Shown here: piece by piece, positions 3,575-18,490 of the stretch
Position numbering within the stretch: the first letter of the stretch is position 1
Layout: the number at the start of each line of letters is the position of its first letter
Origin: Yoonia tamlensis
Lineage (GTDB): Bacteria > Pseudomonadota > Alphaproteobacteria > Rhodobacterales > Rhodobacteraceae
DNA length: 64,000 bases
Assembly (NCBI RefSeq): GCF_900115105.1
Contig: NZ_FOYP01000001.1
Location: 708,097 to 772,096, forward strand
Direction: 5' to 3'
Notes under the pieces: model-generated
Seen by the model: the letters and a program-made list of their open reading frames with translations, nothing else
Told to the model about the DNA's origin: nothing
Database searches by the model: none
Position numbers and translations under genes: made by a program

Positions 3575-3987
3575 GGTTTTGAGGTTCGGTCATGGAGCTA
3601 ACCTAAAATAGCGGGTCAAAAATGGAGCAGGTCACAACCGGATACGTTTTGTAGCGCAGAAGTAGCCCATTAGGTAGTTCTTCAAGGCTATTGGAAGTAG
3701 CTTTGGATAAAAAACCGTTTACATACATGGTTCTAAATGGTGCCCAGGGGCGGAATCGAACCACCGACACGAGGATTTTCAATTAGCGTTGTTATCTGCG
3801 CAGGCTGTTTCAGGAAAGCTCAACACGCCGCTTAGCCTATTGAAAATTTTGATCTTTGTACTCGGCAGATCGTCTCGGTCTGTCTCCTACCAGAGCATTC
3901 AAGCACACTGCTCCTGCAACCCCAGTGATACCCAAGGTGACTGCGGCTGTGGGACGACGAGAATTTACCATCACCAATTGACGCATA
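3575..3987. other. Non-coding interval around the left island end
   Basis: I see no credible gene here. The only clear structure is the 46-bp copy of the tRNA-Phe 3' half at 3738-3783, which marks the left end of the island. The rest (3575-3737 outside the island, 3784-3987 inside) is AT-rich with short spurious reading frames only. A promoter for the Septu-like pair should lie in 3784-3987, but I cannot place it. Confidence 0.6.
3738..3783 (-). repeat. Distal attachment repeat of the tRNA-Phe island
   Basis: These 46 bases are identical to 18416-18461, the part of tRNA-Phe from the anticodon loop to the encoded CCA. The flanks on either side differ from those of the tRNA copy, so the repeat has sharp ends. 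A perfect copy of a tRNA 3' half in direct orientation is the usual product of integration by a tyrosine recombinase, here with the integrase at 7554-8765 in between. Confidence 0.9.
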
Positions 3988-5658
3988 GTGGCTAGCATCC
4001 GACTTCAGGACTTGCATGCGCATTTTGATCGCCGCAAAGTTGTGAGGGCGAAAGTTGGTATTGGGATAAGAACTTTGGAAAATTCTGAACTAAAAGATTT
4101 CTACATAATTTCGTACAGTACGCCGGAGTTCAATCTGCCACTGTTCGCCAATCAAGAAAACGAGGTTGGACCCAAGGCGTCTATTTTGATCGGGCCGAAT
4201 GGCTCAAACAAGAGCCGTGTTCTTGCATCTTTGGTCGAAGAATTGACCAATATCGATGGCCTTAGGCGCGAACTGAACGAAGGTGGCGACGCTGCCCAAG
4301 ATTCCAAATCACAGTTCAGACCACAAAACCAAGAGCTTTTTCCAGACGCGAGACATCGCAAAAGCAGTTTGAGCGTAAAAGGCAAGAACACTCAGAGTTC
4401 CCAAGCAACAGTCAAGTATAGACTAGGCAAGGACGTCTGGACGATTGAGAGAAATCAACGCAATTTGCGCGTCTGGCAGAATTCGGAGCTTGTTGAGCCA
4501 TTTACTTTCCCATTTCCGGACAAAGCAATCGCGGTAGCACACCTCCCAACTGATCGCTTTAAGTTCAACAGACATCATGATGATGACTTCTATATCTATC
4601 TTGGATTGCGCCAAGCCACCAACATGACGACTACAGGGGCTCTGGAAAGCAAGGTTGTACTGAGTTTTATTGACGCGATGCAGAGAGTGCGAGCGCCAGC
4701 CATCTTTAGTAACTGGCTTTCAGACCTAAGGCTGGGACCCTCTCTAAAAATTGAGATTGGACTTGATCGGAGGATTTACTACGAAACTACAATATTTGAA
4801 GAGTTTGCTAATGAAGCTATGTCGCGTTTGGAGCAATTCGGTGGTACACGCCGCCCAATTAGCGAAGATCGTCGTGAAGAAACTCATAGAAATCTAAACG
4901 CATTCTGGCCTTTCTTGTGTGCACTTCGAGAATTTCCCACTCGAAAAAGGAGTAGCAGGCTGCGTTATCGGCCGATCGCTTATTCACTTGCATTTGACGT
5001 AGACCAAATGCCAGACCTCTTCTCCGAGTTTGATGTGGCCGAAATGATCAAGATTGGGCGAAGCCTGCGCGTCATCTCGGACACGGCCCTCGTTTTCACC
5101 AAGTCTCAATACGAGGTTCAGTTTTCTGAGCTCAGTTCTGGTGAACAACAAGTTTTGGGTACAGTTATTCGCTCTGTTGCTGAGCTGGGACGAAACTCGG
5201 TGTTGGTTATCGATGAGCCTGAGGTAAGCTTACATCCTGCGTGGCAGCGCCTATATCTTCCCAGACTTCTAGAAACGTTATCTTTCTTCCCCGAAACACA
5301 TGTCATACTAGCCACACATTCTCACTTCATGGTTGCGGATTTGGCTGAGGGCAAGGCGTCTCTAACGGTTTCGACGAACGAACCGGGAGTCCGGTTCCAA
5401 TCATTTGACGGCGGTGTCTATGGCAGGTCCCCCGAGAACATTCTCTATCGAGTGTTCGGAATCGCGACTACAAGCAACTTTTATGTAGAGCGTGATCTGA
5501 CAAAAGCTCTTAGAATTGTATCTGGCGTTGATGACTTCGACCATCAAGAGCTGGTTGAGATTTTTGGGCGTCTGCAGGTAATAAATGAGCCTGATAACGA
5601 GGCATTGATAGAAATTCTTGCCCGCATTCAGATAGTTCTCGAACGTGGGGTCGACTAA
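3988..5658 (+). CDS. Septu-like ATPase (PtuA-type)
   Basis: This 556-residue SMC/ABC-like ATPase has a Walker A GPNGSNKS at 69-76. An inserted coiled and helical region follows. Then come an ABC-type signature LSSGEQQ at 382-388, Walker B VLVIDEPE with D409-E410, and the switch histidine in ATHSH at 444. The C-terminal part (YGRSPENILYRVFG) resembles PtuA. In Septu, the ATPase forms a complex with an HNH nuclease and restrains or activates it during phage infection. The next gene is an HNH protein that overlaps by one base (TAATG), which is the main support for the assignment. The GTG at 3988 is the first in-frame start but lacks a strong ribosome site, so the N-terminus is uncertain. Confidence 0.78.
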   Translation: MASIRLQDLHAHFDRRKVVRAKVGIGIRTLENSELKDFYIISYSTPEFNLPLFANQENEVGPKASILIGPNGSNKSRVLASLVEELTNIDGLRRELNEGGDAAQDSKSQFRPQNQELFPDARHRKSSLSVKGKNTQSSQATVKYRLGKDVWTIERNQRNLRVWQNSELVEPFTFPFPDKAIAVAHLPTDRFKFNRHHDDDFYIYLGLRQATNMTTTGALESKVVLSFIDAMQRVRAPAIFSNWLSDLRLGPSLKIEIGLDRRIYYETTIFEEFANEAMSRLEQFGGTRRPISEDRREETHRNLNAFWPFLCALREFPTRKRSSRLRYRPIAYSLAFDVDQMPDLFSEFDVAEMIKIGRSLRVISDTALVFTKSQYEVQFSELSSGEQQVLGTVIRSVAELGRNSVLVIDEPEVSLHPAWQRLYLPRLLETLSFFPETHVILATHSHFMVADLAEGKASLTVSTNEPGVRFQSFDGGVYGRSPENILYRVFGIATTSNFYVERDLTKALRIVSGVDDFDHQELVEIFGRLQVINEPDNEALIEILARIQIVLERGVD

Positions 5659-6275
5659 TGCTCAATTTAGACCATAGCGCAGTAATTCCTGCAAACATTC
5701 AAACAGCCTTAAACCAGATACCAGACGACGAAAAATCAGGAATGTGGAAAAGCAAAGCAAACCGCGTTGTCAGTTTTAAATCAGAAGTAATGACGCAAGG
5801 CCTTGAGATGCAAGGCTCGCGCTGCGTTTGGTGCACTCTGGAGGTTTCGGAAGAAGGTCATCGTACGGCACATCGCGATCATATCGCTCCTAAGGGAACG
5901 TATGGCCAGTGGACGTTTCTTCCTGACAACCTCGCTATCGCTTGTGAATATTGCAACGGCTTTGAGATAAAAGGTGAGTTGAACACGGTGTCCATGCCCA
6001 ACGCCGAGTATTCCAACTCTGAGTTTCATATTGTTCACCCGTATTTTGACAACACTGAAGACCATATTAGGTTCGTGGATGGAGATGTCGGGTTTCCAGT
6101 TGTTATTGAAGGTTTGTCTAACAAAGGATTGTGGACGATCGACCAGATGAAACTCGACTCCACACAGTTGACGAAAGAGCGCGCCAAAGACTTTCTTTTT
6201 GCGCGTGACACCGAGGCATTGCCAAACGGGTACTCGGATGTTTTGAAACGAGCGGTTGGTCGACCTATCGGCTAA
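5658..6275 (+). CDS. Septu-like HNH nuclease (PtuB-type)
   Basis: This 205-residue protein is an HNH endonuclease with a zinc-binding frame: C56-x2-C59, the catalytic HRDHIAPK at 72-79, N91 in LPDNLAIAC and a second pair C96-x2-C99 followed by N100. This layout (CxxC, HxxH-P, NL..CxxCN) is that of PtuB and related retron/Septu effectors. The start overlaps the stop of the ATPase gene by one base, which implies translational coupling and fixed stoichiometry. By analogy it would cleave DNA or RNA when the ATPase senses phage. The C-terminal 100 residues (TIDQMKLDSTQLTKERAKDF) match no domain I can name. Confidence 0.78.
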   Translation: MLNLDHSAVIPANIQTALNQIPDDEKSGMWKSKANRVVSFKSEVMTQGLEMQGSRCVWCTLEVSEEGHRTAHRDHIAPKGTYGQWTFLPDNLAIACEYCNGFEIKGELNTVSMPNAEYSNSEFHIVHPYFDNTEDHIRFVDGDVGFPVVIEGLSNKGLWTIDQMKLDSTQLTKERAKDFLFARDTEALPNGYSDVLKRAVGRPIG

Positions 6276-6284
6276 CTCGTCTGT

Positions 6285-7289
6285 TCAACAATAGTCATCC
6301 ATGCAGTCCACATAGCTGTCTCCGGTCAGTTCACAAAACGCCTTCAGTGCTCCTTGGAGCGAGAAATACTGATGTTCGCTGCGATGGTAAAAGAACTCAC
6401 CATGGATTGAGATTTGCGCCACCGCCCAATCCTTAATCGCATTCGGGCTGGGATCGTGGGTCAAAACAACCAAAGCATCTTCGGATAGCGATCGCTGAAC
6501 CACCAAGCTCTGATAAATGTCGTTTCGTGCGAAAACCGTCCCAAAAACAAGGTTCTCCGTATATAGTTCCAGTGCGTTATCCGAAACCTCGGAAGGGCAT
6601 TCTGGAAATTCCGTCGGAACGCGCCAACGAACTTGGATTACTGAAGGCGTAAGGGACTCGTACTCCTCAGGATCAGGTTCAAAATCTGCGCGCTCGTCAG
6701 TACCATACAACCACTCGCCGATTGCTCCTCCGCTGGGAACTGATCCACTTCGCGCCCATGTTTCGAAACGTGATTTCGTTTTGGCAGCCTCGTCTTTCGA
6801 TACAGTTCGCATCCACGAGACATCTGGAAAAGACGCGTCGCTTTGGAGCTTGGACGGATCGGCGAGAAAGGCTTCGATAGAGCCATACACCAGCTCAATG
6901 CGGCGCGCCGTGATTTTATTCAACAGTGCATTTTCCAGCCGCGTCAGCCATCGTAAATTCTCAGGTCGATTGTTCGCGCGGTTTGTGTCGATATGATCCA
7001 CAACGTGTTGTTCAGTAGGTGGTTCGCCGTGAAAAGCTGAACAAACGATGCGGTGCACTGGGACACCTGCCAAATGGTAATAACCAGTTGTTTGGTTTTG
7101 GCGTCCGAAGCTCCAAGTTTTGTCCAGAGGACGGGCCCGTTTTCGATATTCATTGAGACGGTACACCGCACCGTTGTCGCGAACGTGATATCGTTCGCCG
7201 CGATATTCCACTTGGATTTCGTTTTCGTAGACTTCCAGCAGGTGTTCTTGACCGCCCACCTGCGAGACCGTTTGGTTCAATGATTGCAT
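6285..7289 (-). CDS. HNH endonuclease-like protein of the island
   Basis: The 334-residue protein has an N-terminal unit typical of phage and homing-type HNH enzymes: a strand-rich AYRL-type segment, VHRIVCSAFHGEPP near residue 78, then VVDHIDTNRANNRPENLRW at about 96-114, which supplies the HNH His and Asn. The C-terminal 200 residues are acidic and unassigned. It is encoded convergently to the Septu-like pair, with 9 bases between the stops, so it is not in that operon. It could be a solitary homing nuclease, or an independent defence effector whose long C-terminus senses a trigger. Sequence alone does not decide. Confidence 0.7.
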   Translation of the reverse strand: MQSLNQTVSQVGGQEHLLEVYENEIQVEYRGERYHVRDNGAVYRLNEYRKRARPLDKTWSFGRQNQTTGYYHLAGVPVHRIVCSAFHGEPPTEQHVVDHIDTNRANNRPENLRWLTRLENALLNKITARRIELVYGSIEAFLADPSKLQSDASFPDVSWMRTVSKDEAAKTKSRFETWARSGSVPSGGAIGEWLYGTDERADFEPDPEEYESLTPSVIQVRWRVPTEFPECPSEVSDNALELYTENLVFGTVFARNDIYQSLVVQRSLSEDALVVLTHDPSPNAIKDWAVAQISIHGEFFYHRSEHQYFSLQGALKAFCELTGDSYVDCMDDYC

Positions 7290-7553
7290 TACACTCTCCA
7301 GTGCAAAGTTGCCTCGGCCTTCTCCGAACTATTCGATCCGGTGCCGTTTGTTATTGGCAGACGTGAAACTAGGCGTCAGGTGCTGCCTTTTGCTCTGATA
7401 CGCAAAGGAAGAATGTCGCTTCCATGGATGCGAAGTCAACCGTCGATTGAGACGTCATAGCCTGATGGGAACTCATGCAATATGAGCTGACTCGTTTCAC
7501 AGCGTCTAGGATTGTCCCTGACGAGGCAAAGCCCAGTCTCTTATCATGGACCT

Positions 7554-8765
7554 ATGATACAGAAACTCACCACTAAGTTCATCGAGACCAGAAAGCCAAA
7601 CCCAGCCAAGCGGGAAGACTTCCGTGACACTGTGGTTCCCGGCTTGGTCCTTCGTGTGAATAAATCCGGCACCAAGACTTTCAGCTTTCACAAACGCATC
7701 AATGGTAAGATGACACGGCTGACGATCGGTCACTTTGGGCCTTTTTCACTCGTTCAAGCGAGAGAGCGAGCGCGGCAAATTCTCTACGAAATTGAGACCG
7801 GTAATTTTGAAGACCGCACTGGAATTGAGGCTGAGAACAAGCCTACGCTTGGCGACGTGATCCCTGACTACATTGAGAAGTATGCCAAGATACACAACAA
7901 GGATTGCACACGTAAGAACGCCTTGCTCGCAAAATTCACAACCCTGCACGGTAAGCCAATCCATGAAATAAAACGCGCTGATGTAGTCAAAGCTTGTGAC
8001 ACTATTCACAAATCCGCACCCGTCAGTGCAAACCGTGCGCTAGCTTATCTGAAGCACCTTATGGGCTGGTGCGTCGAGCGCGGTATGATCGAGGCCAATC
8101 CCATCTCCGGGATGAAACCACTGTCAAAAGAAAAGCCACGTGAGCGCGTGCTGTCGGACGATGAGCTGGGCGCGCTGTGGGCGGCCTGTGATGACCAAGG
8201 CTATCCTTTCGGGGATTGCATCAAGCTCTTGATGCTCAGCGGCCAGAGACGCGCCGAGGTTGCTGAAATGCGCTGGTCAGAATTGGACCTTGAAAAGCGC
8301 CTTTGGACGTTGCCGTCATCTCGAGCAAAGAACGGTAAACAGCATACTGTGCCAATCACCGACGCGATGCTTGAGGTGCTGCGCAAGCCGCCGAGGTTCT
8401 TCAATTCTGACTATGTGTTCACGACCACCGGCAAATCGCCCGTGTCGGGATTCGGGCGCGTGAAGAATCGGCTCGACACGGCATTAACCGAAGGCACGGA
8501 GTCATGGATCATTCACGACCTGCGCCGCACGATGTCTACCAACATGGCCCAGCTCGGCATTCCACAGCCCGTCACCGAAGCGCTACTCAACCACAAAACG
8601 GGTGTGGTCTCAGGCGTGGCAGCTATCTACAATGTCTATTCATATGCCGACGAAAAACGCGAGGCATTGGAGACATGGAATGCCCGTATCGAAGAAATCA
8701 CAAAGACCAAGAATGATCCGCAATCTGTTGGATGTAGAGACGCCAGATCGCTGGGTCGAATGTGA
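7554..8765 (+). CDS. P4-type tyrosine integrase
   Basis: This 403-residue site-specific recombinase has the N-terminal DUF4102-like arm-binding domain (KRINGKMTRLTIGHFGPFSL), a SAM-like core-binding domain (100-185) and a catalytic domain. Catalytic residues are visible as R232 in GQRRAE, H321 and R324 in HDLRR, H347 in LLNHK and the nucleophile Y359 in AAIYN. It would insert and excise the island at the tRNA-Phe 3' end. The open frame extends upstream to a TTG at 7512, but the ATG at 7554 gives the family's usual N-terminus. It ends inside the start of the next gene (53 bases of overlap). Confidence 0.95.
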   Translation: MIQKLTTKFIETRKPNPAKREDFRDTVVPGLVLRVNKSGTKTFSFHKRINGKMTRLTIGHFGPFSLVQARERARQILYEIETGNFEDRTGIEAENKPTLGDVIPDYIEKYAKIHNKDCTRKNALLAKFTTLHGKPIHEIKRADVVKACDTIHKSAPVSANRALAYLKHLMGWCVERGMIEANPISGMKPLSKEKPRERVLSDDELGALWAACDDQGYPFGDCIKLLMLSGQRRAEVAEMRWSELDLEKRLWTLPSSRAKNGKQHTVPITDAMLEVLRKPPRFFNSDYVFTTTGKSPVSGFGRVKNRLDTALTEGTESWIIHDLRRTMSTNMAQLGIPQPVTEALLNHKTGVVSGVAAIYNVYSYADEKREALETWNARIEEITKTKNDPQSVGCRDARSLGRM

Positions 8766-9444: not shown

Positions 9445-9557
9445 ACCAAATACTTAAAAACACCCCCATTTCGTTCATTGATTTGAAATGAAGCACCTTT
9501 TTAGATGTGTCACTGTCAAGGCAGGAGCCGGTTCCCTTAGTCATGAAAGGGAAAAAT

Positions 9558-9782
9558 ATGACAGACAATGCACTCACGAAGACGCTGGCCACGCGCGAAG
9601 ACCTAAAGCGCATGGGCATCAACGTTTCGAACACCACGAAACTGCGCTGGGAGGCCCAAGGGCGCTTTCCTCGCCGAATTAGGATGGGCGGAACCACTGT
9701 CGCGTGGTTCATGTCCGAGATCGAGGAATGGCTCGCTGAGCGCGATGCTGAACGTGCTCACACACACTACGCAGACTACTGA
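9558..9782 (+). CDS. AlpA-family DNA-binding regulator
   Basis: The 74-residue protein is a MerR/AlpA-type winged helix: LATREDLKRMGINVS, then NTTKLRWEAQGRFPRRI and VAWFMSEIEEWLAERDA. This is the standard AlpA/excisionase layout, in which the helix-turn-helix is followed by the FPRR.R.GG.VAW hairpin. In P4-like and other islands such proteins switch on the integrase or act as excisionases. The ATG at 9558 is preceded by AAGGGAAAAAT, a good ribosome site. It is followed after 22 bases by the primase gene. Confidence 0.85.
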   Translation: MTDNALTKTLATREDLKRMGINVSNTTKLRWEAQGRFPRRIRMGGTTVAWFMSEIEEWLAERDAERAHTHYADY

Positions 9783-9804
9783 TCATCTAGAAAAGGAGAA
9801 TGAG

Positions 9805-11577
9805 ATGCCCAAAGCATTTCGCTTTGAGGATGACATGAAGTCGTCCTCGATCACCACAGCTGCGCTGGTATGGGCGCGGCAGGGTGCAAAAATTATTGCC
9901 CTACATGGCATCAATGAAAACGGTGCATGCACGTGCGGTAAGCGCCAGTGCAGTAGCCCCGGCAAGCACCCAATCGCCGATCTTTTCCCAAAGGGTCAGC
10001 ACAGTGCCACCAGCAGTGTCACTAAGATACGTCGTGCATTCAAAGCTCACCCAGACGCAAATCTGGGTGTGATCCTTCCACAAGGGTTGGTGGCACTTGA
10101 TGTCGATGGCCCCGAAGGCGCTAAGACTTTCGAGGCTCTAGACCTCAAACAGACTTTGGCGGTCCAAACTGGCAGAGGTATGCATCACTACTTTCGGGCC
10201 TCAGAGGCGCTCCCCAAGAAAAAAACGCCCCTTGATGGCATCGATATCAAAGATGCTGAGAGCGGGTACATCGTAGTGCCTCCGAGCAATCATCATAGTG
10301 GAAAATCGTATCGATGGCGCGGCAACAAAAGACCCATCGGGAAACTGCCCTCGTCGTTTGTAGGTTCGCTTGAACGCAAAGGCAGACGCACAGCAAGCTT
10401 TCAAAATGAAGGGACATTCAAAGCCGGTGGCCGTAACAATGAGCTAACCAAGATCGCTGGCTCATTGAGGTATCGGGGACTTGGCGACACAGCCCTCGCT
10501 ACCGTTTTGCAAGCAGTCAATAGCGCAGTCTGTAACCCACCTCTTGGCGCTGATGAAGTTGACCGCATTGCCGACAGCGTTGGCAAGTATGACACGGGCA
10601 GCGACGAAGCCTTTGGATGGCTTGGGGATGTCGAAGAATCCGAACCGCAGTTTCTTGCCTACCCTTACATTATCAAGGGTGCGATTACCGTCCTCGACGG
10701 AAACATGGGACAAGGTAAGTCCACCTTTACTTGCGCAATCGCCGCTGCCGCTACAACAGGCAAGCCACCACCCTTTACTGATGAGATTGAGCAAGGGTCG
10801 GTGCTGTTCATGTCAGCGGAGGATGACCCGTCGAGGGTTCTCAAACCAAGGTTGATGAAAGCCGGAGCCGACGTTTCGAAGGTGCGATATCAAGATGAAC
10901 CGTTCACGCTTGATGAGCGCGGCTTGGCGCTGGTGCGGCAAGAGCTAACCTCAAATACCCCCGCATTGGTTATCATCGACCCAATCATTGCGTTCATGCA
11001 GGAGGGCTCGAACGGCAACAACGCCACTGAGACTATGCACTTCATGATTCAGCTAGATCAACTGGCGCGGGATTTTGACGCGGCGATCCTCATTGTTCGG
11101 CACCTCCGTAAGTCGCGGGCTGATCACGCAATGCACCAAGGTATCGGGTCAATATCGATCTCTGCACGGGTTAGGTCAGGGCTGATACTTGCGCCACATC
11201 CAGACAACCCCAAAAAACGGGCAATTGTGCACGCGAAGTCAAACTATTCAAAAGCCGGTCCCGCCATCGTCTTCGAAATGGAGAGCGATGGACCGCGCTC
11301 CCATCCGAAGATCGTCTGGCATGAATGCGATCCAGATATGACCGCCGATGATCTTCTAGCCCCGCCCGAAGCTGAACGTGGTCGGCCACCAAAAGCCCGA
11401 GATACCGCAACTGCGTGGTTGGAAAGCGTGCTGCGCCGTGGCCCAACTAAGAAAAAGGTGCTGGACGGTATGGCAGCCACAAACGGCATCACGTTGGCCA
11501 CGCTACGCCGCGCAGGTGACACACTCGGCGTCATTAAGTCGAAAGACGGAAAGGAGTCTGTCTGGGCTCTGCCGTGA
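9805..11577 (+). CDS. Primase-polymerase / RepA-type ATPase fusion
   Basis: This 590-residue protein combines an N-terminal primase-polymerase (prim-pol, AEP fold) with a RecA-like ATPase. The prim-pol part shows a Cys-rich CTCGKRQCSSPGKHP segment (42-55), the metal-binding ALDVDG (D99, D101) and GRGMHHYF (H127/H128). The ATPase has Walker A GNMGQGKST (K305), a FMSAEDDP element and Walker B LVIIDPI, as in RepA-type replicative helicases of plasmids and phages. A basic C-terminal segment may hold a DNA-binding domain. It would prime and help replicate the excised island. The ATG at 9805 follows AAAAGGAGAATGAG; ATGs further upstream lack such a site. Confidence 0.88.
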   Translation: MPKAFRFEDDMKSSSITTAALVWARQGAKIIALHGINENGACTCGKRQCSSPGKHPIADLFPKGQHSATSSVTKIRRAFKAHPDANLGVILPQGLVALDVDGPEGAKTFEALDLKQTLAVQTGRGMHHYFRASEALPKKKTPLDGIDIKDAESGYIVVPPSNHHSGKSYRWRGNKRPIGKLPSSFVGSLERKGRRTASFQNEGTFKAGGRNNELTKIAGSLRYRGLGDTALATVLQAVNSAVCNPPLGADEVDRIADSVGKYDTGSDEAFGWLGDVEESEPQFLAYPYIIKGAITVLDGNMGQGKSTFTCAIAAAATTGKPPPFTDEIEQGSVLFMSAEDDPSRVLKPRLMKAGADVSKVRYQDEPFTLDERGLALVRQELTSNTPALVIIDPIIAFMQEGSNGNNATETMHFMIQLDQLARDFDAAILIVRHLRKSRADHAMHQGIGSISISARVRSGLILAPHPDNPKKRAIVHAKSNYSKAGPAIVFEMESDGPRSHPKIVWHECDPDMTADDLLAPPEAERGRPPKARDTATAWLESVLRRGPTKKKVLDGMAATNGITLATLRRAGDTLGVIKSKDGKESVWALP

Positions 11578-11731
11578 GACGCAGCAACAACCGTACAACA
11601 TTCACTTGCTCAGAATTCAGACACGTATGTGAATATTGAGCAAGTGATCATCCCAGCAAATAAAACGCAGGTTCAGCAATATCAATGAAATCGGGCTGAA
11701 ACTACCTATCCCAACACATAAGGAACACCTC

Positions 11732-13252: not shown

Positions 13253-15028
13253 ATGGAACAAGATGATTTCATCATGAGAATTGCGCACATTTTAATTTCA
13301 GAATTCCGTGGCATCAAAGTACTTGAATGGTCACCCTCACCATCCGTAAATTGCATGATTGGTCCGGGGGATTCCTGCAAGACGACGATTTTGGACGCCA
13401 TTGAGATCGGCCTATCCCCCCGTTACGGCTACACGGGAAGCGATCCCGACCTATTTCGTTGCGACCCTACTAGTAAACCCGAGATTTGTTTGACGCTCGT
13501 CGATCTTCCAGATGAGTTGGTCGTGGAGCAAAAATATGGGCTCTACTTGCGAGGCTGGAACGAGGCAGCCAAAAAAATAAATGATGAAAAGGCAGACGGC
13601 GACCAGACAGCTTTGACGGTAAAAGCATTGCTTGATCCAGAAACCCTTGAATGGAAATGGGAGATATTCAACGAGCGTCTTGAAGGTGAGCCACCTCGAT
13701 TTGGCTTTAAGGACGCGAAATCCACCGCACCAAACCGACTTGGGGAATACGCGGACCGCCACCTTACATGGGGTCGAAATTCTGTGCTCGGAAGGCTTGA
13801 GAAAGGGCCGAATGCGTCTGAGTTGCTGGCAAGCTCAGTCAGACAGGCAAAGGCATCATTCGCAGCAGGGGACCGTAGTTCGTTTGATGATGTAGTTAAA
13901 CTGACTGAGAAGGTCGGCGCGGACTTTCTTGTGCCGAAGGTTCAAGGCTACGAAGCCCAGTTAGATATCCATTCCGGTATGCTAGCTTCGGGCGCAGTTT
14001 CTTTGCACGATGGCGATATGCCGCTGAGAACCCTTGGAAGCGGATCGTCACGCCTCATGGTCGCTGGTGTCCAGAACTCAGGCCCGAAGCAGAATATCAC
14101 ATTGGTGGATGAGCTCGAACTGGGGCTGGAGCCACACCGCATAATGCGTCTGCTGCGCTTCCTTCGATCAGGATTTCCACAGCAAGGCGACGCGCCACCT
14201 ATCGTACATCAAACCTTCCTGACAACTCATTCACCAGTCGTTGTTTGCGAATTGGATGTTTCAGAATTATTTTGCGTTCGGAGCCCCGCAGGCAATGTTT
14301 CCGTTGAGTGCGCTCGACCATCAGAGGGGCAAGAGGAAACTGCGCAACGGCATGTTCGATCCAACCCAAATGCTTTTTTAGCTCCACGCTTGTTAATCGG
14401 TGAGGGGCGAACAGAAGTAGGATTTTGGCGAGGACTGGATGACCTATGGTGCGCCGAAGACAAGGAGTCATTCGCCTATCAAGGCGTCGTTGCAATTGAC
14501 GGTGGCGGAAACGACAATGCCGTGAAGTTCGGACTGCATATGCAGAAATTAGGCTACAGTTGCTTTACGTTGCTTGACACGGATGTTCCTGTTTCTGAGG
14601 TGAACAAGGAAAAGTTTAAGGAAGCTGGAGGGCAAGTCGCGGAATGGGAAGACGACTGTGATATCGAACGCAGGATCTTTCTAGATGTTCCATGGGCCAC
14701 TGTGCGGGAAATAATCGACTATGCTCTCGAGGTTGTCGGCGAAGGAAGGGTTCTGAGTAATCTATGTTTGGCTGGCATGGGGCCAGCGGACATTGATCGA
14801 GCCGCCTTAAACATACTCGCCGACTCTGAGGATAATCGCATATGGTTAGCCGCGGCAGCCACTCTCAAAGTCGCAAAAAATACAGGGGGTAAAGAAGATC
14901 GATCATGGTTCAAAGACATGACGCGCGGAGAGCAATTGGGCAAGATTGTCTTCGATTGTCTCAAAGCCATTCCGGAGACCCCACTTGCGATAACAATAAA
15001 TGAAGTGAGGCACTGGGTCGATGCCTGA
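13253..15028 (+). CDS. Gabija-like OLD-family nuclease (GajA-type)
   Basis: This 591-residue protein has the GajA/OLD layout of an ATPase followed by a TOPRIM nuclease. The ATPase has Walker A GPGDSCKTT at 37-45 (Cys in place of the usual Gly before Lys), signature LGSGSSRL at 261-268, Walker B ITLVDELE with D286-E287 and switch His H325 in TTHSP. The TOPRIM has E384 in IGEGRTE and D442/D444 in LLDTDVP. In Gabija, GajA nicks DNA when nucleotide pools fall and acts with the helicase GajB. The next gene is UvrD-like and overlaps by 8 bases, and both lengths fit GajA and GajB. Some N-termini in this family begin at a Met equivalent to M8 here. Confidence 0.82.
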   Translation: MEQDDFIMRIAHILISEFRGIKVLEWSPSPSVNCMIGPGDSCKTTILDAIEIGLSPRYGYTGSDPDLFRCDPTSKPEICLTLVDLPDELVVEQKYGLYLRGWNEAAKKINDEKADGDQTALTVKALLDPETLEWKWEIFNERLEGEPPRFGFKDAKSTAPNRLGEYADRHLTWGRNSVLGRLEKGPNASELLASSVRQAKASFAAGDRSSFDDVVKLTEKVGADFLVPKVQGYEAQLDIHSGMLASGAVSLHDGDMPLRTLGSGSSRLMVAGVQNSGPKQNITLVDELELGLEPHRIMRLLRFLRSGFPQQGDAPPIVHQTFLTTHSPVVVCELDVSELFCVRSPAGNVSVECARPSEGQEETAQRHVRSNPNAFLAPRLLIGEGRTEVGFWRGLDDLWCAEDKESFAYQGVVAIDGGGNDNAVKFGLHMQKLGYSCFTLLDTDVPVSEVNKEKFKEAGGQVAEWEDDCDIERRIFLDVPWATVREIIDYALEVVGEGRVLSNLCLAGMGPADIDRAALNILADSEDNRIWLAAAATLKVAKNTGGKEDRSWFKDMTRGEQLGKIVFDCLKAIPETPLAITINEVRHWVDA

Positions 15029-16478
15029 GCTTTCCCAAGAGGAAGTCACGGCCATCATTCGCGCGACTAAATCCGGAAGCGTAATCGCAGCCGCCGGGTG
15101 CGGTAAAACTGAGCAAATTGCGCGAACCGTGCAAGCAATCAGTGATGATCCGGAGGTTTCGAAACGCTGTCTCATTCTAACCCATACATTCGCGGGCGTA
15201 GACGTACTGCAGAAAAGGTTGCGCAGACTAAATGTGCCAGCGGCTTCTTTTAGGCTCGATACCATAGCGAGTTGGAGCCTGCGATTTGCGAACGGCTATC
15301 CAAAGACCTCTGGGATCAAAAATATCAACCCACAGAGTAACAAAGATTGGTCAGCTGTATATCCTGCTGCAGAAAAGCTCGTCGGTTCTCACGCTATCGA
15401 TGATGTGATCCTTGCCACCTATGATTGCGTTTTTGTTGATGAGTATCAGGACTGTAGTGAAAGCCAGCATGCGCTAATTGTGGAACTCAATCGGCTTGTT
15501 CCCGTCTGTGTCTTTGGGGACCCCCTGCAATCAATTTTCAAGTTCGATGGTGTTGTCGATTGGTATGAGGTTGTCGAAAGAGATTTCCCTAACATCGCAA
15601 AGCTGACCAAGCCTTGGCGTTGGAGGAATGACAATGCGAATGCCGAACTCGGCGATAGATTGGTTGAGCTGAGGGCACAGCTTGAAGCTGGTGAAGCGAT
15701 GGATTTCAGAGTCGATGGAAATGGTATTCAACGGCATTGGTTGCCTGATTGGCCTGTCCCAAAGTCGAAAAAGGTATCAGAGGTTTGCCTTGATACCATG
15801 GCCCTAGAAGGCACTTTGGTGGTCGTGGCTCAATCAGCGTCCGAGGGATCGCGCGCTAAGATCGCAGAGAATCTTGCAAAGCAGAAGTTTGCTGTTGTTG
15901 AGCCAGTTTCGTGCAAGGCGCTACGGAAGCACGCGAAGTCCATAGAAGAGGCGGACGATGAATACAGGCTCACAGCAGTTTTAGATTTCGTGAAGCAATG
16001 CGTTGTTGGGCTCAGGGCTGACTTCGCAAAATCTGTTGTGTCTCACCAAAAGGGAGGTAAGTCTGGGCGACCCAAATTCGGTGATCTCATAGACATCGGA
16101 GACCATGTTGCAAAGCCGGGCGGATTGCTGCACGTGCTGGAACTTGTTGAAGGGATATTGAATCGAGACGACATTTTCCCTTATCGTCGAGAGCTTCTTC
16201 GCATGATGCTCGCAGCGTTGCGAACATCAAGAGCAACGGGCGCACTGCTTTCTGAAACAGCGGGGGACATTGAAGCCAAATCCCGGCACCTAGGCCGTCA
16301 TGTCGCCCGAAGGAGTGTCGGCAGTACACTTCTATTGAAAGGCTTGGAGTTCGAGCATGTAATAATCGTTGAGTACGATGGAATGACCAAAGAAGATTGG
16401 TATGTCGCTCTCACGCGTGCGACGAGGTCGGTGACCGTGTTGTCATCTCAATCCAAAGTTTCATGGGGAGATAAATGA
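15021..16478 (+). CDS. Gabija-like UvrD/Rep-type helicase (GajB-type)
   Basis: This 485-residue superfamily 1 helicase is much shorter than UvrD (about 720 residues), as GajB is. Motif I is AAAGCGKTE with K29. Motif Ia-like LILTHTFAGVDVLQKRL follows. Motif II is VDEYQD at 139-144 and motif III is FGDPLQSIFKF at 165-175. The C-terminal GLEFEHVIIVEYDG and WYVALTRAT (460-468) form motifs V and VI. GajB senses DNA ends made during phage infection and activates GajA. The start ATG lies inside the end of the nuclease gene (8-base overlap), so the two are co-translated. Confidence 0.83.
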   Translation: MPELSQEEVTAIIRATKSGSVIAAAGCGKTEQIARTVQAISDDPEVSKRCLILTHTFAGVDVLQKRLRRLNVPAASFRLDTIASWSLRFANGYPKTSGIKNINPQSNKDWSAVYPAAEKLVGSHAIDDVILATYDCVFVDEYQDCSESQHALIVELNRLVPVCVFGDPLQSIFKFDGVVDWYEVVERDFPNIAKLTKPWRWRNDNANAELGDRLVELRAQLEAGEAMDFRVDGNGIQRHWLPDWPVPKSKKVSEVCLDTMALEGTLVVVAQSASEGSRAKIAENLAKQKFAVVEPVSCKALRKHAKSIEEADDEYRLTAVLDFVKQCVVGLRADFAKSVVSHQKGGKSGRPKFGDLIDIGDHVAKPGGLLHVLELVEGILNRDDIFPYRRELLRMMLAALRTSRATGALLSETAGDIEAKSRHLGRHVARRSVGSTLLLKGLEFEHVIIVEYDGMTKEDWYVALTRATRSVTVLSSQSKVSWGDK

Positions 16479-16656: not shown

Positions 16657-18207
16657 ATGACTAATGACATATCAAAGTACCTTCTAAAGAATGGCCCGAA
16701 GCTCACTTCGGATATCCTTCGCCACCTTGAGGAAACAGGGCTCTCACCCGATACCGCTCGTCAAAGGCTTAGGCGCAGACCCACTTCGGTCAAGACACTG
16801 TTGGGACTAAGCTTTCCAAAGAACGCTCGTTTCTACTTTCACGAGGCGCACTTTGGCACCCATCGGTATTGGGACGGACTTTTTGATGCCCTGACCGAAG
16901 GCAGCCCAACCTACGGGCCAGCAATCGCCGCTATGATTGCGAAGGGAGGGATCATTCCAAGTGATTTCTTCCCGATCATCTCTGGCGCACCGCTGAAACA
17001 GAAAAAGAAGACAGGCAGCGATGCAGTTCTAGCGCGCCTCAAAGGCATTGGGTTTCTAACTGAGTTCACTGTCGGCGAGACACCTGTTGTAGCCTTTCAC
17101 CACCATTCGGGCTTTTCAGTCGACTTTGACGGTTACCCCGCGCAGCTCACAGTCCAGCGCGTCCTCTTGGATGCGGTTGCCGACTGGGCTCGTAAGCTCG
17201 GAATGGTAAGCTACAATAAAGTTGCCATACGAGAGCGCGGCCAAGCGCTCCCACAGTTTGGGACCCACGCTTTTGACCTAGTTGCGCCCAGCTACCTGAC
17301 ACCCATGGTGCGCTATGCCGACGGCAAACCGAAACCGGGCTTCCTCGTCGCGGATGTCTATTTGGGTGAACTGAACAAAGCGACTGCCCAGGCGTTCTTG
17401 CGCAAGTGCGAAAGTTCGCGTGCTATGCGGCGGTTGCCGCCGTTCCTCCCAGTAATAATCGCTGACGGCTTCCACCCTGATGCATTTCACGAACTGCGCG
17501 CCAACGGCATCATCGCAACAAAACCATCGGCTCTTTTTGGCCGAGATGTCGCGCGCGGTTTGGCAGGCCTGTTGGAAACCCTTCATCACGCCAGTGCAAT
17601 TGCTGCCAAGAACCCGGAAGTCATCGAAACCCTATTCAGTCAGTTGGGTCACATCGAAGGAGCGGCGGGCAATCTGCGCGGTGCACTGTTCGAACTGATC
17701 GTTGGACATATCGCAACACTGCAAGGCGGCGGTTCAATCGATATCGGGAAAAAGGTCTTCATCGACACTGATGAGAGATACGAAGTTGATGTGTTCTGTG
17801 TTTCGGCAGAAACCGTCCGGCTCATCGAGTGCAAAGGCTACGCGCCAACCCATAAGGTGGATGCGGAAGAGCTAGAGGCGTGGATTCGAACCAAGGCGCG
17901 TCGCCTAAACAAGCATTTTCGTGCGCAAGAGACGTTGCAAAACCGCGCGTTCAGCGTTGAGTTTTGGACCTCCGGCGGTTTTACTAACGAGGCGCTACAA
18001 CTAGCCGAAACTGTTTCCAATGAAACCAAACGCTACGGCGTCAAACTGGTGGCAGGACAAGATGTCCGCTCGCTTATTACAAAAGTGAATGCCAAAGGTC
18101 TGGGGAAAGTCTTTGACGAGCACTACGCCAAACACCCGATCACCAAAGCAGAACGTAAATTTGACGCCTTGGAGGATTTCGGTTCGGTTATTAAAGACGC
18201 TATGTAA
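16657..18207 (+). CDS. PD-(D/E)XK nuclease-like protein, unassigned
   Basis: This 516-residue protein is not from a family I can name. The N-terminal 65 residues look like a winged helix (LLKNGPKLTSDILRHLEE, then TARQRLRRRPTSVKTLLGL). Residues 340-395 form a PD-(D/E)XK core: E346 in RGALFELIVGHI, D378 in YEVDVFC and E391-C-K393 in LIECKGY. A middle region with FGTHAFDLVAP and FLVADVY (204-235) could be a second, degenerate nuclease fold. It is encoded alone, 178 bases after the Gabija-like pair and next to the tRNA attachment site. A DNA-cleaving defence effector with its own DNA-recognition domain is a reasonable inference, not shown. Confidence 0.7.
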   Translation: MTNDISKYLLKNGPKLTSDILRHLEETGLSPDTARQRLRRRPTSVKTLLGLSFPKNARFYFHEAHFGTHRYWDGLFDALTEGSPTYGPAIAAMIAKGGIIPSDFFPIISGAPLKQKKKTGSDAVLARLKGIGFLTEFTVGETPVVAFHHHSGFSVDFDGYPAQLTVQRVLLDAVADWARKLGMVSYNKVAIRERGQALPQFGTHAFDLVAPSYLTPMVRYADGKPKPGFLVADVYLGELNKATAQAFLRKCESSRAMRRLPPFLPVIIADGFHPDAFHELRANGIIATKPSALFGRDVARGLAGLLETLHHASAIAAKNPEVIETLFSQLGHIEGAAGNLRGALFELIVGHIATLQGGGSIDIGKKVFIDTDERYEVDVFCVSAETVRLIECKGYAPTHKVDAEELEAWIRTKARRLNKHFRAQETLQNRAFSVEFWTSGGFTNEALQLAETVSNETKRYGVKLVAGQDVRSLITKVNAKGLGKVFDEHYAKHPITKAERKFDALEDFGSVIKDAM

Positions 18208-18415
18208 TGCACCGACAGGCCGCACGGGTACGTAAAATGTTTCCAGCATGTATTCGAGAAGCGGGCATTGGTCGACCCTGATGCAGCAGGTTTGGATAAT
18301 AACCCTTTTTTAGACCTAGAGGCTGAAATGATACCCCAGTGCTACCCAAGACAAATGGCATCGGCCTACCGGTAACGAAATCTCCATCTAGCAAATTGTT
18401 TTTATTATATAAAAT

Positions 18416-18461
18416 TGGTGCCCAGGGGCGGAATCGAACCACCGACACGAGGATTTTCAAT
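18416..18461 (-). repeat. tRNA-proximal attachment repeat
   Basis: These 46 bases are the 3' part of tRNA-Phe, from the anticodon loop to the CCA end, and recur without mismatch at 3738-3783. The island's recombination core must lie within them. Confidence 0.9.
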
Positions 18462-18490
18462 CCACTGCTCTACCCCTGAGCTACCCGGGC
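18416..18490 (-). tRNA. tRNA-Phe (GAA)
   Basis: Read on the minus strand, the gene starts GCCCGGGTAGCTCAG and ends with an encoded CCA after GGTTCGATTCC in the T-arm. The acceptor stem GCCCGGG pairs with CCTGGGC (one G-U). The anticodon loop TTGAAAA gives GAA, phenylalanine. The 75-nt gene remains intact because the inserted island restored the 3' half. Confidence 0.96.

Follow-up and report, generated by a model that had tools for sequence, protein, structure and literature searches.

A Gabija-like gene pair with a cysteine in its Walker A motif, carried by an integrative element at tRNA-Phe in Yoonia tamlensis

What defines class 2 OLD proteins is a helicase of the UvrD/PcrA/Rep type in tandem, often encoded in an overlapping frame, and class 1 OLD proteins stand alone, without a helicase partner, according to the accessible part of the paper that draws the distinction (PMC6755086). 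How the OLD ATPase gates the nuclease is disputed in the published work on GajA of Bacillus cereus, as far as the accessible sections of the two reports go: in one, GajA is described as lacking ATPase activity, its K35A variant as unimpaired in cleavage and in ATP inhibition in vitro, and H320A as partly relieving ATP inhibition (PMC8136825), whereas in the other GajA is an active ATPase, and H320A abolishes defence but leaves inhibition intact (PMC10822852). The published results on Walker A Lys mutants are at odds in the excerpts available: while the exchange was harmless to GajA in vitro, it disabled P2 OLD in vivo (PMC7049728), and the WonA mutant also lost its function in vivo (PMC12137116).

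Within the window (the whole stretch of 64,000 nucleotides of Yoonia tamlensis DNA that was analysed) we find a gene pair that we read, with a probability of roughly 0.7, as a putative Gabija-type (class 2 OLD) anti-phage module, the cargo of a satellite-like integrative element at tRNA-Phe. On this reading, the GajA-like protein would act as a DNA nuclease of the TOPRIM type, restrained by its own ABC-type ATPase domain as long as nucleotide is bound there, and would form a complex with the GajB-like SF1 helicase/NTPase; upon infection, nucleotide depletion and DNA ends would lift this restraint. The Cys that stands for the P-loop Gly is an established lineage state, which would preserve nucleotide binding and would probably shift nucleotide affinity or slow hydrolysis.

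The gene pair and its kinship

The gajA-like gene (13253..15028, forward strand, 591 aa), predicted to encode an OLD-type ABC ATPase with a TOPRIM nuclease domain, overlaps by 8 bases (15021-15028) the frame of the gajB-like gene (15021..16478, forward strand, 485 aa), predicted to encode an SF1A UvrD-like helicase; the ORF coordinates thereby bear out the lengths, order and overlap given in the initial annotation. The same annotation had proposed a Gabija-like OLD nuclease with a UvrD-like helicase and suggested a search with GajA and GajB profiles, in which both proteins indeed matched over nearly their full length, at 604 bits with PADLOC GajA PDLC04168 (residues 8-590) and at 482 bits with PADLOC GajB PDLC04173. 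With Pfam, AAA_21 and AAA_15 scored above the cut-off on the GajA-like protein and OLD-like_TOPRIM below it. Both genes are under purifying selection, dN/dS against the four closest relatives being 0.085-0.101 for gajA and 0.070-0.093 for gajB. Because of the near-full-length PADLOC matches and the low dN/dS, the pair is, judged from its sequence, no chance pair of ORFs. The gajA-like gene may alternatively start at 13274, giving 584 aa: an annotated Sulfitobacter homologue starts at the equivalent Met and DNA similarity to this homologue also begins at 13274, and in the other three close relatives the similarity starts slightly 5' of it, at 13259-13269.

The TOPRIM Glu and both Asp, earlier described as intact, are present (E384, D442 and D444), as is a C-terminal Lys (K554, matched to B. 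cereus K541 by motif order). We aligned 37 GajA-like rows (query span >380 residues, >80 bits), 36 of them distinct as L060 equals L023 in sequence, and omitted partial, broken or more distant frames (including L009, L011, L017, L026, L010 and L051). K43, D286, E287, H326, E384, E388, D442, E472 and K554 are invariant in all 37, a set that covers the P-loop Lys, Walker B, the H-loop, the TOPRIM Glu and the C-terminal Lys; D444 is Asp in 34 rows and Glu in 3. When the metal site of BpOLD (E404, T506, E508) is mapped by spacing only, it falls on the invariant E388 and E472 and on residue 470, the T506 counterpart, which is Asp in the window protein and Ser in 12 rows, Ala in 11, Asp in 6, Thr in 2 and Lys, Asn or a gap in the rest. 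The window helicase carries Walker A (AAAGCGKT) and DEYQD; in a 34-row helicase alignment, from which shorter helicase frames were omitted, DEYQD occurs in all 34 rows, the Walker A GK in the 33 aligned there, and the motif VI Arg in every row aligned at that position. A helicase relative stands at the same locus in 36/36 counted relatives, the one at L062 being cut short by an IS3 insertion.

An AF2 model of the GajA-like protein (pLDDT 81) aligned over residues 8-591 to GajA residues 1-575, with VIA Z 18.7 over 421 residues to GajA 8x5i_D and 19.5 over 380 residues to T. scotoductus OLD (TsOLD, 6p74). Speaking against a Gabija identity, SMC-type chains reached Z 19.1-19.4 over the ATPase domain, above GajA, and the three best GajA entries in Foldseek gave TM-scores of only 0.41-0.43. 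The VIA list is dominated by the ATPase domain and so contains many SMC and RecF chains (Z 17-19.4, some of them ahead of GajA); it scarcely tests the model beyond residue 417.

With the GajA-like protein as query, phmmer returned no GajA chain at E 0.1, and a family profile scored B. cereus GajA at 57.7, PtuA at 54.9 and TsOLD at 54.3 bits, GajA being barely nearer. Such nearly tied scores favour a possible though doubtful alternative, namely that an OLD lineage acquired its UvrD-like helicase in an event separate from the origin of Bacillus-type Gabija and would work alike by other descent. The trees point the same way: the window family forms its own helicase clade (100/100) while two Bacillota GajB pair with the host's own UvrD-like helicase (93/92), and the OLD tree places the family outside a group formed by classical GajA and PtuA (85/87). 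However, long branches were flagged in both trees, and the AU test did not reject one helicase clade with canonical GajB (p 0.115) or the OLD family joined with all GajA (p 0.0996); joining it with the two Bacillota GajA only gave p 0.023. Moreover, among PADLOC models other than its own, the window GajB scored best on GajB PDLC00122 (60.2 bits), although the reverse-transcriptase-linked RTasHel model ties with it (59.8 bits); PcrA reached 30.4 bits. Helicase similarity was found in the short flanks of six of the eight classical GajA rows taken from genomes (L012, L015, L028, L029, L032 and L037) and was not found in those of L035 and L042, so some of these eight rows may not be Gabija.

In weighing the Gabija reading, we counted for it the PADLOC bits, the helicase linkage, the invariant motifs, the AF2 alignment to GajA and TsOLD, the low dN/dS, the sharing of DNA confined to the pair, Septu in the element and defence genes near relatives; against it we counted trees that do not join the window lineage with canonical Gabija and the near-tied profile scores.

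Mobile setting and distribution

The gene pair lies inside a 14.7-kb integrative element bounded by an exact 46-bp direct repeat, whose left copy (3738..3783, forward strand) and right copy (18416..18461, forward strand) are 14,678 bases apart, the latter within the 3' part of the integration target, a tRNA-Phe (GAA) called by ARAGORN (18416..18490, reverse strand). The first 28 bases of the repeat, at up to 3 mismatches, had no match in 100 shuffles, and in the two same-genus genomes examined different DNA stands between copies of the repeat at tRNA-Phe, one copy carrying a mismatch. An integrase together with direct att repeats, one of them at a tRNA 3' end, marks this as a tRNA-targeting integrative element. 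The tyrosine integrase (7512..8765, forward strand; Pfam Phage_integrase 72.7 bits, Arm-DNA-bind_3 45.1 bits) is accompanied by an AlpA-like regulator (9507..9782, forward; PF05930, 37 bits), a Prim-Pol/RepA-like primase-helicase (9745..11577, forward; Prim-Pol 103.9 bits, AAA_25, PriCT_1) and an HNH_3 endonuclease gene (6285..7289, reverse; PF13392, 66 bits). The att-bounded element also holds, at 3988-6275, the adjacent genes of a Septu system in the order PtuA ATPase, then PtuB HNH: a PtuA-like ATPase (3988..5658, forward; PDLC00265, 254 bits; Walker A GPNGSNKS) and a PtuB-like HNH nuclease (5658..6275, forward; PDLC00312, 110 bits; Pfam HNH below cut-off).

A third cargo gene (16657..18207, forward strand, 516 aa) has no library match; its C-terminus (FE..EVDV..IECKG) resembles, on visual inspection, a PD-(D/E)XK nuclease, and some distant plasmid relatives are annotated with a NERD domain. 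A literature search on the NERD domain with plasmid defence gave no NERD-domain paper among the matches listed, and its AF2 model, built from two rows, has pLDDT 35.5, too low to be of use. We gave up the idea that the system requires this gene, since among the loci compared it accompanies gajAB in L002 only; 4.5 kb 3' of gajAB in L001 is free of it, and the L003 locus runs into the end of its contig. At this tRNA hotspot, the element brings together two predicted defence systems of the ATPase-nuclease type and a nuclease-like gene that lacks annotation.

The gajAB-like lineage is widespread and often plasmid-borne, relatives occurring in 314 of 72,556 plasmid records (GajA regions were sampled from 17 of the 314). 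None of 50,697 phage records held a relative (tblastn, E 1e-5), nor did a first scan of viral contigs; a scan with alignment A2 gave 9 viral-contig loci, with Gly at the motif position in 7, Thr in 1 and an unreadable residue in 1, and no viral contig matched a degenerate DNA pattern written for the Cys motif. Counting the own genome, the GajA query hit 13/394 family and 28/398 phylum genomes at E 0.001, many of the weak matches in these two tallies being other ATPases, and 5/385 class genomes at E 1e-20.

The frequency on plasmids, and the location of some relatives among metal-resistance or transfer genes, would suit a DNA-repair or plasmid-maintenance module with no defence role. We consider this improbable: Septu sits on the same element, and Shedu, type I R-M and Abi genes were found near relatives in a scan of part of the neighbours, run without a control set. 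The DNA common to the window and L001, L003 and L044 is the gene pair only. The initial annotation held that its proposal would be refuted by placement of the pair in a separate OLD family that has no link with defence. This is not what emerged: the lineage is distinct, yet defence genes adjoin the pair in the window and stand near several relatives.

The Walker A cysteine

The Walker A motif GPGDSCKT (13361-13384, forward strand) departs from the canonical P-loop GxxxxGK[ST] in that Cys42 precedes the Lys, the first Gly, the Lys and the Thr being retained; the exchange, already noticed in the initial annotation, is real and encoded by TGC at 13376-13378. Position 42 is Gly in 24, Cys in 7, Thr in 5 and Ser in 1 of the 37 rows, 13 of which lack the P-loop Gly (among omitted frames, the partial L009 has Ala, L011 Cys, and L017 and L026 Gly). 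Cys requires three changes on the tree, and the interchange of Gly, Cys, Thr and Ser amounts to 6. Besides the window protein, Cys42 occurs in four relatives at 80-86% identity and in two distant ones (31-37%), and the five close sequences all retain the TGC codon, at dS values of 0.88-1.27. As to whether the variant is widespread, Cys42 is a lineage-level state not peculiar to the window protein. Since the P-loop Lys, Walker B, the H-loop, the TOPRIM Glu and the C-terminal Lys are invariant and dN/dS is ∼0.09, Cys42 is, on these sequence grounds, a tolerated or selected variant and not decay.

It is quite possible, if short of even odds, that Cys42 is neutral, structurally tolerated and without functional consequence. 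The six interchanges on the tree are consistent with this, as is K35A of GajA, a perturbed loop without effect in vitro in the accessible text (PMC8136825). On the other hand, TGC has been kept in the close sequences over the dS given above, and in the 37 rows no residue other than Cys, Thr and Ser takes the place of Gly, although the partial L009, outside that count, has Ala.

Somewhat less plausibly, and we think it unlikely, Cys, Thr or Ser could make the ATPase a binding-only or weak-binding sensor, with hydrolysis gone or the nuclease set free at nucleotide levels that would still hold it in check in Gly relatives. The repeated loss of the Gly with the other checked ATP-site residues retained would fit. 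So would the class 1 OLD YbjD, whose Walker A K35A variant, in the available part of the report, stayed anti-phage and was more toxic (PMC13261556); the non-functional Lys mutants of P2 OLD and WonA, as excerpted above, indicate that the loop matters in relatives. The unchanged cleavage and ATP inhibition of GajA K35A in vitro weigh against it, and no literature on measured Cys, Thr or Ser P-loop forms was found, a search on non-Gly P-loops yielding no matching paper. A redox switch in which Cys42 pairs with the nearby Cys34 is very improbable: Cys34 is present in 7/7 Cys42 rows, but also in 21/24 Gly42 rows, with no sign of co-occurrence, and the idea is ranked low because Cys34 does not track Cys42.

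On a bolder reading, which we think unlikely, a large mobile Gabija-like lineage, its helicase possibly recruited independently of Bacillus-type Gabija, would have repeatedly swapped a near-universal P-loop Gly for Cys, Thr or Ser, with the remaining residues of the ATP site and the nuclease retained; its ATPase would then be retuned into a nucleotide gauge that binds more weakly or does not hydrolyse, and this would set when the nuclease fires. In light of the dispute over GajA, the recurrent loss of the P-loop Gly offers a ready test of nucleotide sensing in Gabija-like defence, and naturally occurring lineages whose P-loops differ at a single residue, with the rest retained, allow a clean comparison (C42 versus C42G, and the reverse in a Gly relative).

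Comparison with known systems

Akin to Gabija (GajA-GajB) of B. cereus VD045, the window pair combines an OLD ATPase/TOPRIM nuclease, followed by a UvrD-like helicase, both similar in length to their counterparts, with the TOPRIM Glu and Asp pair, the C-terminal Lys and the H-loop His, although the two are remote in sequence and differ in the P-loop (GPGDSCKT versus GMNDIGKT) and in Walker B (LVDE versus LIEE). PtuA of Septu has a related ABC-type ATPase and is not known to have a TOPRIM domain, and its partner PtuB is an HNH protein whereas that of the window protein is a helicase. The window model has the same overall fold as the class 1 OLD of T. scotoductus, judged by its top VIA Z, yet class 1 proteins are described as solitary and the window OLD has a helicase directly 3'. 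With the class 2 OLD proteins of B. pseudomallei and X. campestris, as far as their accessible description goes, the pair shares the tandem helicase, while the BpOLD T506 position (residue 470, by spacing) is unconserved in the window family.

The Gabija-like pair and its lineage

The gajA-like gene (13253-15028, + strand), encoding an OLD-type ABC ATPase with a TOPRIM nuclease, overlaps the gajB-like gene (15021-16478, + strand), encoding a UvrD-like helicase. A PADLOC profile search bore out their initial annotation as a Gabija-like OLD nuclease and helicase: for the first product, GajA model PDLC04168 gave 604 bits over residues 8-590; for the second, GajB model PDLC04173 gave 482 bits over residues 13-481. 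The PDLC000xx-series GajA models scored far more weakly (best PDLC00086, 56.7 bits), near other PADLOC models (AriA 48.5, PtuA 40.3 and Old 38.1 bits), and the pair thus fits PADLOC's Gabija models while belonging to a lineage apart from the classical models. Class 2 OLD proteins are defined by a tandem UvrD-like helicase (PMC6755086) and are equated with GajA in a review (PMC10568477); the tandem helicase places the window pair in this class, and by architecture and catalytic residues it is a predicted Gabija.

In an alignment of the window GajA with 36 largely full-length relatives (37 rows), the first P-loop Gly, D40, K43, Walker B D286-E287, H326, E384, E388, D442, E472 and K554 are invariant (37/37), and residue 444 is Asp in 34 rows and Glu in three, in keeping with the earlier reading of the TOPRIM Glu (E384) and both Asp residues (D442 and D444) as intact. 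The helicase retains its Walker A Lys, the DEYQD box and the later motifs checked. An AlphaFold model of the GajA-like protein (pLDDT 81, pTM 0.81) superimposed on T. scotoductus OLD across 380 residues (Z 19.5, rmsd 4.2) and, within model positions 8-591, on B. cereus GajA with bound ATP across 421 residues (Z 18.7, rmsd 4.8). The two Z values are tied, and over the ATPase domain condensin and SMC chains fall between them (Z 19.1-19.4). In Foldseek, 6p74 led the ranking (query TM 0.50), followed by GajA entries (0.41-0.45), at rmsd values of 11-15, suggesting that domain placement probably differs in the model. We regard the genes as a real and probably functional Gabija-like defence pair, the function being predicted.

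As to common descent with classical Gabija, both the helicase and the OLD trees are weak because of long branches. In the former, two Bacillota GajB proteins join the host's UvrD-like helicase, apart from the family (93/92), and in the latter PtuA groups with classical GajA, not with the family (85/87). Single-clade hypotheses were not rejected (helicase, p 0.115; OLD, p 0.0996), and a clade of the family and the two Bacillota GajA alone was rejected (p 0.023).

A mobile module at tRNA-Phe

Relatives are present in 314 of the 72,556 plasmid records, in 292 of which a single place spans 80% or more of the query, and in none of 50,697 phage records. All 36 relatives counted have a helicase relative in the same locus, one copy (L062) being cut by an IS3 element. 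At the DNA level the window shares just the gene pair with Halomonadaceae (L001, L003) and a Sulfitobacter plasmid (L044); with a further locus (L002), where neighbouring genes were read by eye as a relaxase and a coupling protein, it shares the third gene as well. This pattern argues that the module moves as a cassette. Among the genes next to plasmid relatives are a Shedu nuclease, a type I restriction system, and restriction endonuclease and Abi genes; PADLOC models matched by 83 neighbour proteins from 15 loci, hand-picked rather than exhaustive and without a control set, include SduA, type I R-M, OloB and PD-T7-5, and Cas12 matches are probably the TnpB-family protein annotated in L062. 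At some other loci, such as a copper-resistance region, no gene is annotated as a defence gene. A 250-aa ORF that follows gajAB in the Halomonadaceae locus (L001, 6619-7371) resembles, by eye, a PD-(D/E)XK restriction endonuclease; it has no BLAST match to the window's third gene.

An exact 46-bp repeat, with its left copy at 3738-3783 and its right copy at 18416-18461 inside tRNA-Phe, bounds 14.7 kb that carry Septu PtuA and PtuB, an HNH_3 gene, an integrase, AlpA, Prim-Pol, the Gabija-like pair and the third gene, a gene set that we take to resemble P4-like satellites. In two same-genus genomes (L088 and L089), those inspected of 20 others searched, this tRNA is the site of other DNA, about 5.4 and 3.8 kb long, enclosed by the same repeat pair with a single mismatch in one copy; the tRNA therefore looks like an integration hotspot. 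One of these genomes encodes a 72-residue stretch with 40% identity to the element's integrase. The end of the third gene and the attachment site (window 17766-18463) recur in a viral-contig record (L082, 33-744), at 86% across 713 columns of alignment, which points to a probable sibling element. An inverted repeat without spacer (11602-11647; 23-base arms, 83% complementary) lies just downstream of the Prim-Pol gene and may be a terminator or a replication site.

Searches against Pfam, NCBIfam and PADLOC gave no match at E 0.01 for the third gene (16657-18207, + strand, 516 aa). Members of its family are found on 357 plasmid records out of 72,556, and a few of the remote ones bear a NERD domain annotation; a 3.24-kb Escherichia fergusonii plasmid has one member as its sole large annotated gene, and an E. 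coli plasmid carries another next to SIR2, DUF87 and HEPN genes. We consider the third gene a candidate for a nuclease that acts in defence as a single gene or in competition between plasmids.

A recurrent cysteine in the P-loop

The Walker A motif GPGDSCKT carries Cys at the usual P-loop Gly site, and this cysteine is real and recurrent in its lineage. Four relatives at 80-86% identity share it, with codon TGC in each; since gajA dS between these and the window is 0.88-1.27, the state is old relative to the five sequences, and a dN/dS of about 0.09 indicates purifying selection on the genes. Of the 37 rows, 24 have Gly at this position, 7 have Cys, 5 have Thr and 1 has Ser, whereas Gly occupies it in all ten classical GajA proteins sampled (two Bacillota references accompanied by a helicase and eight PADLOC GajA hits), so that the variant, whose extent the initial annotation had proposed to check, is widespread within the lineage and absent from this small classical sample. 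On an IQ-TREE tree built after removal of the P-loop column, the label Cys needs three changes, every one of which is forced by starred branches, and the label Gly three, two of them forced, gain and loss not being separable; L052, a Cys row on a long branch, is placed with little certainty. Among the matches listed in a literature search of open-licence papers, we found no publication on a Cys-type Gabija-like variant. A 137-aa gajA frame (L009), apparently a truncated copy from the same bacterial family, has 60% identity to the window over 106 residues and Ala at the P-loop position (GPGDTAKT). The element's Septu PtuA-like ATPase (3988-5658) has Asn at the same site (GPNGSNKS); with Gly in all seven relatives whose motif is in view, this Asn may be private to the window copy.

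Comparison with Walker A changes in known OLD proteins

In published work, B. cereus GajA K35A left both cleavage and its inhibition by ATP in vitro unaltered and H320A partially relieved inhibition (PMC8136825). In a later study GajA hydrolysed ATP, and the H320A mutant lost anti-phage activity and did not relieve the inhibition (PMC10822852). A Walker A mutant of the class 1 protein YbjD retained its anti-phage phenotype, with higher toxicity (PMC13261556). Against these K35A and YbjD results, P2 OLD (PMC7049728) and WonA (PMC12137116) lost function in vivo when their Walker A Lys was mutated. Deviating OLD ATPase motifs are known elsewhere, TsOLD, for instance, having Glu for Asp in Walker B (PMC7049728). 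Set beside these mutants and deviations, a milder change next to the Walker A Lys, such as the cysteine, may tune rather than break the switch.
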